DNA from: an uncultured Cytophagales bacterium
GTDB taxonomy: Bacteria; Bacteroidota; Bacteroidia; Cytophagales; Thermonemataceae
Assembly: GCA_937911505.1 (NCBI GenBank)
Contig: CALEMF010000049.1
Location: forward strand, 1-64,000
DNA length: 64,000 nucleotides
Direction of reading: 5' to 3'
The notes under the pieces were generated by a model that was not told where the DNA came from, ran no database searches, and worked only from the letters and a program-made list of their open reading frames with translations. The translations under genes and the position numbers were made by a program. Within the stretch, counting starts at the first letter, position 1, and every line of letters starts with the position of its first letter. Positions 15,327 to 17,924 of the stretch are shown piece by piece.

Positions 15327-16013
15327 ATGAGTTATTATTTTTTAAATGAAGAGTTACATTTCCCTCCTGTTCATCAAGCCAACAGAGATGGTGTCTTAGC
15401 CATCGGTGGCGACTTATCAATCGATCGGCTGTTATTGGCCTATCGTTTAGGTATTTTTCCTTGGTTTTCTGAAGACGAGCCCATTATCTGGTGGTCACCA
15501 GACCCACGCTTTGTATTACTTCCAGAGCATTTAAAAGTCTCTAAAAGCATGAAGCAAGTGCTGAAAAAAGATGAATTTACTATCACCTATGATCAGTCCT
15601 TTTTAGAGGTTATCTCTAGCTGCCAGTCTATTAAAAGGGAAGGACAGTATGGCACTTGGATTACTAGTGATATTATAGAAGCTTACTATCAACTTCATCA
15701 GATGGGCTATGCACACTCTGTAGAGGTTTGGAAAGAAGAGAAACTGGTGGGTGGCCTGTATGGTGTGGCCATTGGAACCTGTTTTTACGGAGAATCTATG
15801 TTTACCAAAGTGAGCAATGCCTCTAAGGCTGGTTTTATTACCTTAGTCAAACAACTGGCAACAAAAGGCTTTACGCTTATTGACTGCCAAGTATATACGC
15901 AACATTTAGAAAGCTTGGGGGCACATTATATGCCTAGACAACAATTTGTTAAAAAGCTAGAAGGTTGTCTTACCAATACTACATTGAAAGGTAACTGGGG
16001 TGAGCTCCTCTAA
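15327..16013 (+). CDS. aat: Leucyl/phenylalanyl-tRNA--protein transferase
   Basis: Adds Leu or Phe from tRNA to proteins with N-terminal Arg or Lys, marking them for ClpAP degradation (N-end rule). Family features are LHFPPVHQANRDGVLAIGG, YRLGIFPWFSEDEPIIWWSPDPR, and VGGLYGVAIGTCFYGESMF. An upstream in-frame ATG (15288) would add 13 residues. The start at 15327 (MSYYFLNEELHFPP) matches where family members begin. Its end overlaps the convergent LemA-like gene by four bases. Confidence 0.93.
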   Translation: MSYYFLNEELHFPPVHQANRDGVLAIGGDLSIDRLLLAYRLGIFPWFSEDEPIIWWSPDPRFVLLPEHLKVSKSMKQVLKKDEFTITYDQSFLEVISSCQSIKREGQYGTWITSDIIEAYYQLHQMGYAHSVEVWKEEKLVGGLYGVAIGTCFYGESMFTKVSNASKAGFITLVKQLATKGFTLIDCQVYTQHLESLGAHYMPRQQFVKKLEGCLTNTTLKGNWGELL

Positions 16014-16435
16014 CCTACTTTCTTATAGCCTGCCAAGTTAGCGACTACTTTGGAAGGCATTTGCTCTACAAAACTATTGTAGCTCCTTTGCGCATGCAGA
16101 TGCTTTTTCAGCATCATTTTCAGTGCGGCTGTATCAATAGTCGTATTCTTGAGGGTTTGTTGTATGCGTGGAATCGCATACACGACGATTTTGTAGCTAT
16201 CTCGATCAATGAGAGATTGTTGCTCAATAATCTCTTTTTCGATGACAGCCTTCTCTTCGCTATCTTTTATATCGATACTTCCTCTGAGTTGCTCTAAAGC
16301 ACTTACTAGTGCCTCTTTTAGCTGCTTCTTAGTGGCGCTGTATTCCCAGTAGGCTTTACGAATCGTGTTATAACTTAGTACAGCTAGTAGGAATAGGAAA
16401 CCTAAGGAAAAGAGAATGATAGGTACACCTCCCAT
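16010..16435 (-). CDS. LemA-like membrane protein
   Basis: One N-terminal membrane helix (residues ~3-22, VPIILFSLGFLFLLAVLSY) is followed by a helical, partly coiled-coil domain. The end (AQRSYNSFVEQMPSKVVANLAGYKKV) resembles the closing segment of LemA proteins (YN...VE..PSNLIA...), though the fit elsewhere is weak and the protein is shorter than usual (141 aa). The gene is convergent with aat. LemA function is not well defined. Confidence 0.5.
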   Translation of the reverse strand: MGGVPIILFSLGFLFLLAVLSYNTIRKAYWEYSATKKQLKEALVSALEQLRGSIDIKDSEEKAVIEKEIIEQQSLIDRDSYKIVVYAIPRIQQTLKNTTIDTAALKMMLKKHLHAQRSYNSFVEQMPSKVVANLAGYKKVG

Positions 16436-16503: not shown

Positions 16504-17343
16504 TTACAGCCAATCTTTTAGTTGCTGGGCAAAATCGTCTATCATTTTTTTCTGCTCTATAGGATTGGTCTGTGAGCGTAAGTCATCTGATAGAAAAAGT
16601 TCTACTTCCCATATCTTAAAGATTTGATCGCTATGGAGCGCAAAAGGCTCAAATAGTGGATTGTCTGAATAACAAATAATGCTGTCAAACTTTTTCAGGT
16701 AGCGCTTATCTATCCTTTTGAGCATTACTCCGTCACTTTTTGTGGCAATTAGGTAGAGATTACCGCTGGTTACTTCCGTGTCTTCTTGTAGCAAGCGACA
16801 GATGACCCAGTTACCATGCTGTATTACATCTTGCATAGAGTTTCCTGCAATGCGATAGCAAGCGTACAAGCCCGTTTTACGGAGCATGGGTAAGCGAAAT
16901 TTATCTATCTCTTTAAGGTTTTCTTCTGTGAAATACACTTCTGGATACCCTGCGATGGCAATGTCTGGTGCTAAAAAAACATACTCTTTGTTCTCTTCAA
17001 TTTCGTTGATAGGTACGTATACCACCTCTGTTGATTGAAATAGCCCTGTTTCTTGGGAAATATTTTCCACTTGCTTGGGAAGTGATTGGAGTGTATGGAG
17101 CGTTCCTTCGCCTGTAAAAAGGTAAGCTACATTGACATAAGGAAATTTAGCTACTATAATACCTATTAAATCTGTATTGGCTTGTAGCTTACCCGTTCTG
17201 ATATCAGAAAGCTTTTGTGGGTGTATATCTATATCTTTGGCAAACTGTGCATCACTCTGATAGTCTTCCTTTGCTACTATGTAATCAATGGCCTCTACTA
17301 CCCGCTTACTTATGGCTACTTTTCTTTCTTTCCGCGTTTTCAT
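16504..17343 (-). CDS. LexA/CI-like transcriptional regulator with S24 peptidase domain
   Basis: The N-terminal helix-turn-helix domain (residues ~10-80, SDAQFAKDIDIHPQKLSDIRTGK) is followed by a linker and a C-terminal S24 domain. The S24 dyad is present: Ser169 in RIAGNSMQDVI and Lys209 in VMLKRIDKR. An Ala-Gly pair (A130-G131 in IAIAGYPEV) sits ~39 residues before the serine, where self-cleaving repressors are cut. The start is set at ATG 17343 (MKTRKERK). The longer frame from 17373 would run through a repeat that looks like an operator. It is divergent from a LytTR gene, and likely autoregulated through that repeat. Whether it responds to DNA damage is unknown. Confidence 0.85.
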   Translation of the reverse strand: MKTRKERKVAISKRVVEAIDYIVAKEDYQSDAQFAKDIDIHPQKLSDIRTGKLQANTDLIGIIVAKFPYVNVAYLFTGEGTLHTLQSLPKQVENISQETGLFQSTEVVYVPINEIEENKEYVFLAPDIAIAGYPEVYFTEENLKEIDKFRLPMLRKTGLYACYRIAGNSMQDVIQHGNWVICRLLQEDTEVTSGNLYLIATKSDGVMLKRIDKRYLKKFDSIICYSDNPLFEPFALHSDQIFKIWEVELFLSDDLRSQTNPIEQKKMIDDFAQQLKDWL

Positions 17344-17394
17344 AATTAAAATAATTATAAACTTCACTTGCAATATAATTAAAATAATTATAAA
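17342..17394. promoter_or_regulatory. Two direct 20-bp repeats, each an internal palindrome: candidate operator
   Basis: ATAATTAAAATAATTATAAA occurs at 17342-17361 and again at 17375-17394, 33 bp apart (about three helical turns). Within each copy TAATTA-AAA-TAATTA is an inverted repeat. The first copy overlaps the start codon of the S24 regulator and both lie in the divergent gap before the LytTR gene. This is the layout of an autoregulatory operator. The low sequence complexity calls for caution. Confidence 0.6.
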
Positions 17395-17450
17395 TTGCTT
17401 TATAATATAGTTTATTTCTTCTTAATTACCTTAATCAAAAGAAAATCGTT

Positions 17451-17924
17451 ATGGCAAATCAGCTAATTCATTTTACCAATTTACAAGCGGATACTTCGCG
17501 CGCAGCACCACGTTCTTATTATGGGGTGCGTAACACTACTTTTCTTAAAGCACTTCATCAACGAGAAGAAGTAGCCCAAGAAGCCTTGAACAGCAGCATA
17601 ATTCCTTTGAGGGATTGCCTCTTCATAAAAAAGAGGACACGTTTCCAGCGGGTCAAATTTGAAGATATTCTCTGGGTACAAGCACAAGGCAACTATGCGC
17701 TGATACAAACTTCTTCGGAGAGTTTTGTAAACTGTTTAAAACTTTGGCAGGTTGCTCGAATGCTTTGTAAAGAGATGTTCGTTCGTGTACATCGTTCGTA
17801 CATCGTTAACTTAGCGTATATCACAGCACTGGAAGGCAACATGCTCTATATAGATACGCATCGTATTCCTATAGGAAAAACCTACCGAGAAGCGGTACTG
17901 AAACACTTCCATATGGTGCATTAA
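17451..17924 (+). CDS. LytTR-family DNA-binding protein without receiver domain
   Basis: Residues ~55-155 form a LytTR domain: LFIKKRTRFQRVKFEDILWVQAQGNYALI, then EMFVRVHRSYIVNLAYITALEGNMLYI and IPIGKTYRE. The ~50 N-terminal residues are not a response-regulator receiver, so the input signal is not phosphorylation on this chain. It is divergent from the S24 regulator, with a repeated palindrome between them, suggesting that the S24 protein controls both. The target genes are unknown. Confidence 0.85.
   Translation: MANQLIHFTNLQADTSRAAPRSYYGVRNTTFLKALHQREEVAQEALNSSIIPLRDCLFIKKRTRFQRVKFEDILWVQAQGNYALIQTSSESFVNCLKLWQVARMLCKEMFVRVHRSYIVNLAYITALEGNMLYIDTHRIPIGKTYREAVLKHFHMVH

Follow-up and report, generated by a model that had tools for sequence, protein, structure and literature searches.

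Paired dyads between divergent S24 repressor and LytTR genes of an uncultured Cytophagales bacterium, probable operators of a phage-type repressor

The divergent gap and its repeated dyads

The window, a 64-kb stretch of DNA from an uncultured Cytophagales bacterium, contains an S24 (CI/LexA-like) repressor gene (16504..17343, minus strand, 279 aa) and a receiver-less LytTR gene (17451..17924, plus strand, 157 aa). The two genes are divergent and are separated by a gap of 107 bp (17344-17450) with an A+T content of 85%. Two copies of the 20-mer ATAATTAAAATAATTATAAA are present, beginning at 17342 and 17375 (a spacing of 33 bp), and no other copy occurs on either strand of the window. The two copies are exact and lie about three helical turns apart, as the preliminary description had stated. 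Copy 1 (17342..17361, no strand) contains the dyad O1, TAATTAAAATAATTA, at 17343-17357, and copy 2 (17375..17394, no strand) contains the same dyad, O2, at 17376-17390, 33 bp from O1. The symmetry described earlier as TAATTA-AAA-TAATTA is real and can also be written as the 15-bp dyad TAATT-N5-AATTA. The start codon of the S24 gene is ATG on the minus strand (17343-17341), and copy 1 extends into its first bases, which agrees with the earlier placement of one copy over this codon. The distance from the end of O2 to the LytTR start codon is 60 bp.

The repeat in the gap is far above chance expectation. The longest exact repeat lying wholly within the gap is 18 bp. In 2000 dinucleotide shuffles of the gap, the repeat never exceeded 14 bp, a length that was reached in 2 of them. 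Among 3195 tiles of 107 bp in the window, the top three all hold the ATAATTAAAATAATTATAAA repeat (20 bp), and the others reached at most 14 bp. The exact 15-mer TAATTAAAATAATTA is found only at O1 and O2 in the whole assembly (5.0 Mb, 123 contigs), and versions with one mismatch occur at 7 further places, against 3 for the backward control.

The element TTGCAA (17368..17373, no strand) lies between O1 and O2. It may be a promoter element of the -33 type, readable in both directions, under the -33/-7 consensus that we take to hold for Bacteroidota promoters. A weak third candidate dyad, TAATT-ACCTT-AATCA (17423..17437, no strand), was recognised from sequence only near the LytTR start; it has one mismatch in an arm and may have arisen by chance, with about 0.2 such dyads expected in a gap of this kind by rough estimate. 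The published half-site arrangements CTAA-N5-TTAG and GGA-N5-TCC were not found in the 107-bp gap.

The S24 repressor, the LytTR protein and their relatives

The 279-aa protein matched the Pfam family Peptidase_S24 (E = 5.8e-9) and a PHROG transcriptional repressor family (5.4e-13), and HTH families were matched in PHROG too. The alignments bore out the intact Ser/Lys dyad and the plausible Ala-Gly site of the preliminary description. The dyad is S169/K209, both residues being invariant across the alignments made, and the candidate scissile bond is A131-G132, located before the serine. The alignment showed A-N or A-S at this position in the nearest HTH relatives. With Ala-Asn at the cleavage position in close relatives, not every member of the group need be cleaved. 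Pfam called no HTH domain in the protein. Five N-terminal helices forming an HTH region were predicted by AlphaFold with good confidence (pLDDT about 68-89), and the model is poor outside this part (mean pLDDT 48), so that the N-terminal part alone is usable. The fold of the HTH region matched repressors of phage 186, P22 and the lambda type as well as XRE HTH domains, with weak scores (best E = 6e-3). The gene downstream of the S24 gene (16010-16435, minus strand) encodes a protein of 141 aa whose N-terminus is hydrophobic and for which no Pfam family passed the cut-off.

The LytTR domain covers residues 66-152 of the 157-aa protein (Pfam, 9.1e-16). It is the sole Pfam domain found, so the term "receiver-less" used earlier is correct.

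No close ortholog of the S24 protein or of the pair was found in protein searches of 39, 390 and 395 genomes, or in protein scans of genome contigs and viral contigs. The best relatives were those in G005, with 33% identity over most of the S24 protein, and in G078, where the match (47%) was confined to the catalytic part. Among plasmids there was one partial match, and among phages there were two matches. A held-out HTH profile searched against 335 genomes of the phylum found only 5 matches beside the window (L214-L218), and four of them (L214-L217) all failed the dyad-pair test described below.

Dyad pairs and gene partners at other S24 loci

The layout was compared with that of distant S24 relatives of the same HTH type, both chromosomal and phage-like. 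When the regions upstream of S24 genes were searched for paired dyads without constraint, p<=0.05 was reached in 4 of 14 loci of this HTH type, with spacings of 33 (the window), 32, 31 and 31 bp. Other S24 loci reached p<=0.05 in 15 of 99 cases with scattered spacings, just one of the 15 at 31-33 bp. A test with a fixed 5-N5-5 dyad pair was applied to 21 hand-chosen loci, of which 8 had p<=0.05 and 13 failed. The maximum score (20/20, p=0.002) was obtained by the window at 33 bp and by the viral contigs L174, L177 and L175 at 30, 30 and 31 bp. The best pairs of the other four passing loci were at 41, 39, 23 and 23 bp, the last two being L070 and L081. By eye, two dyads 31-33 bp apart were seen in eight loci.

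The Cytophagales loci L070, L080, L081 and L082 have three sites of the form TWCTT-N5-AAGWA, and the two nearest the gene are 31-32 bp apart. Counted from S24, these upstream dyads lie at about -82, -59 and -28. The TWCTT consensus was taken from these four loci themselves, so their p-values are not independent, and the p-value for a spacing of 30-34 bp from the consensus scan was not used where the best pair of a locus has another spacing. The half-site of the window is TAATT, as against TWCTT in its nearest relatives by HTH, and the window pair was not significant under the TWCTT consensus (p=0.226). Local alignment of the gap with those of 112 relatives gave p<=0.05 in 6 of the 112 and was not significant overall (L070 0.18, L080 0.016). 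The stretch TATTGCAAG adjoining O2 was also seen by eye in L070; with the gap-to-gap alignment not significant, it carries little weight alone. Given the half-site mismatch and this alignment result, the case rests on architecture and not on sequence identity.

The near divergent gene in relatives is mostly small (54-108 aa), often HTH-like, and 63-145 bp from S24. Such a gene was found in L070, L080, L081, L082, L088, L091, L121, L151, L028, L174-L177 and the Elizabethkingia phage TCUEAP3, in which MuA and MuB transposase genes follow further on. Its product is 54-57 aa in L070, L080, L081 and L082, the gene of L082 being the same gene read from an inner start. In L174, L175 and L177 the small divergent gene encodes 67-71 aa, and the dyad pairs, perfect and spaced by 30-31 bp, have the half-sites TATGA, TGGAA and TATGA, respectively. 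The small HTH gene that stands opposite the repressor in switches of the CI/Cro or Mu c/Ner type is missing opposite the S24 gene of the window, and its slot is taken by the LytTR gene.

A LytTR profile scan of 146 S24 locus records, which include near-duplicates, found no orthologous divergent S24-LytTR pair outside the window. A LytTR neighbour was present in 6 of the 146 records: the window (two records), G525, G717 (twice) and G461. In G525, G717 and G461, which represent three genera of another family (f54), the LytTR gene is downstream of S24 on the same strand. A survey of f54 covered 46 genomes with 17 S24 loci at E<=1e-55. LytTR adjoins S24 in 3 of the 17 loci, and CTAA-N5-TTAG sites lie upstream in 7 of the 17, those three included. 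The same-strand linkage of f54 differs from the divergent linkage of the window and may be of independent origin. Fourteen LytTR matches were counted in the genome studied here. LytTR genes are common in the phylum, so the two S24-LytTR linkages alone are no proof of a functional bond.

Several features of the f54 loci were also noted. L152/L196 (G717), L158/L197 (G525) and L155/L199 (G461) have S24 with CTAA-N5-TTAG upstream, followed by the same-strand LytTR gene. The LytTR proteins of G717 and G461 are 285-286 aa long with a hydrophobic N-terminal half, and the gaps before their genes are 24 and 27 bp. The first ATG of the G525 LytTR gene is further on and its start is unsure. A protein with a similar N-terminus begins about 960 bp downstream in G609 (L154) and is cut by the end of the locus. 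Three sites of the CTAA-N5-TTAG type, some with one mismatch, are present in L196, L197, L199, L203, L204, L206 and L209, at nearly fixed positions of about -75, -35 and -17 relative to the start of S24.

Probable operator function, alternatives and significance

S24 repressors of Bacteroidetes with a CI-like HTH, termed non-canonical LexA, recognise dyad-N5-dyad palindromes in the promoters of their own genes, and binding is abolished when the spacer is changed (PMC8565304). The same source reports that mitomycin C induces these genes and that Cytophagaceae homologs were too divergent for assignment (PMC8565304). The window protein shares with this group an S24 domain, to which a putative CI-like HTH is joined, the Ala-Gly and Ser/Lys residues, and a dyad-N5-dyad arrangement with two or more sites in its own promoter (PMC8565304). 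Its half-site is TAATT, unlike those of the CTAA-N5-TTAG and GGA-N5-TCC groups given there (PMC8565304). The window protein also differs in HTH subtype (27-33% identity to the nearest relatives found, over most of the protein), in the wider regulon, of which none was seen, and in its divergent LytTR partner.

Other systems resemble parts of the locus. Francisella FddR controls itself and a divergent gene, and the S24-LytTR pair would likewise be a self-contained divergent unit; however, the FddR site is GTG-N11-CAC, and FddR is paired with dinB or with a gene of unknown function, not with LytTR (PMC13148647). The Mu-like phages of Bacteroidota (TCUEAP3, L174, L175, L177) have, like the window, an S24 repressor with an HTH and a divergent neighbour, across 63-96 bp in their case. 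The perfect dyad pairs of L174, L175 and L177 resemble the window pair in spacing, whereas TCUEAP3 failed the dyad-pair test. The partner in these phages is a small protein of 67-72 aa, and their half-sites are unlike that of the window. The closest printed parallel for a LytTR protein tied to the SOS response is Caulobacter HigX, a membrane LytTR factor (PMC13384398). For HigX, as in the present reading, DNA-damage control is linked with a LytTR regulator, but HigX has four transmembrane helices and lies beside higBA (PMC13384398), whereas no membrane part was assigned to the window LytTR, whose gene adjoins S24.

We consider it likely that the paired dyads are operators of the adjacent S24 repressor, a co-opted CI-like protein of phage type that represses itself and probably the divergent LytTR gene. 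One S24 dimer would bind each TAATT-N5-AATTA site. O1 and O2 are about three helical turns apart on one face of the DNA, so binding could be cooperative, as we presume. O1 covers the putative -7 region and the S24 start codon, a position from which the S24 protein would repress itself. Autoregulation, which the preliminary description had proposed, is well supported by analogy with the N5 operator form in PMC8565304 and with the dyad pairs 30-33 bp apart at distant relatives. O2 and TTGCAA lie in the putative LytTR promoter region, and their position suggests that the S24 protein probably holds LytTR low. Both genes would be released on loss of the repressor, for which cleavage at A131-G132 stimulated by RecA is the most likely route; we infer that such cleavage is induced by damage. 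The unit may be a co-opted immunity switch from a temperate or Mu-like phage, in which the LytTR gene replaces a small Cro/Ner-like gene.

It is unlikely, but worth weighing first, that S24 binds O1 and O2 to control itself only, with LytTR a mere neighbour under its own promoter and control. The position of O1 at the S24 start, the 60 bp between O2 and LytTR, and the restriction of the divergent pair to the window among the 146 records are compatible with this. So is the genome-wide count of the TAATT-N5-AATTA dyad, which shows no excess (14 sites, where the backward control gave 25). However, the equivalent gap of the relatives separates S24 from a divergent regulator, the usual layout of a two-promoter switch, and FddR acts on itself and on its divergent gene (PMC13148647).

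We give little credence to S24 being the SOS master repressor of the organism (a non-canonical LexA), with the dyads belonging to a wider regulon. Dyad-N5-dyad operators and autoregulation are compatible with such a role, and of the two S24 proteins found in the assembly one is UmuD-like, the gap-adjoining protein being the sole HTH-S24 protein. Against it, the dyad is not in excess genome-wide, and no SOS gene was recognised downstream of the 12 other exact sites, their neighbours being judged by eye without family search. The region upstream of umuD and umuC contained no dyad with up to 2 arm mismatches and no CTAA-N5-TTAG. A genome-wide S24 regulon was rejected on these three grounds.

Binding of the repeats by the LytTR protein in place of S24, with regulation of both genes, is very improbable. 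LytTR proteins do bind repeated sites. However, the known sites are direct repeats whose half-sites contain GTT and lie about a dozen bases apart, unlike the window dyad, and paired dyads also lie upstream of S24 relatives without a LytTR neighbour. If A+T-rich sequence had been duplicated in tandem not long ago, with no role in regulation, this would account for the match of both copies over 20 bp, spacer included, in a gap of 85% A+T. Such an origin is hardly credible, as the identity ends after 20 bp instead of extending over the whole 33-bp unit, and both copies form complete dyads of the N5 type in print, with a spacing as in relatives.

The circuit had been called possibly undescribed. 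This holds for its LytTR partner: no description of a LytTR gene as the divergent partner of an S24 repressor was found in the open-access literature. It does not hold for the co-option of a phage repressor that controls its own gene and a divergent one, which is already known from PMC13148647 and PMC8565304. The new element is the LytTR partner.

Going beyond the operator reading, we tentatively speculate that a stand-alone LytTR gene has taken the place of the Cro/Ner partner of a damage-cleavable, phage-derived repressor, forming a compact relay from DNA damage to LytTR. In this doubtful but possible extension, S24-LytTR coupling would recur in Bacteroidota, having arisen again as the same-strand pair of S24 and a membrane LytTR under CTAA-N5-TTAG in three genera of another family. 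If the proposed reading is true, the locus is a small case of a phage switch that now relays stress in its host through an output gene of a new kind. A spacing of 30-33 bp between paired dyads would then also look like an arrangement common to those S24 repressors of phages and hosts that have this HTH type, and this shared layout would aid the prediction of operators and targets for Cytophagales S24 proteins that are otherwise unassignable.
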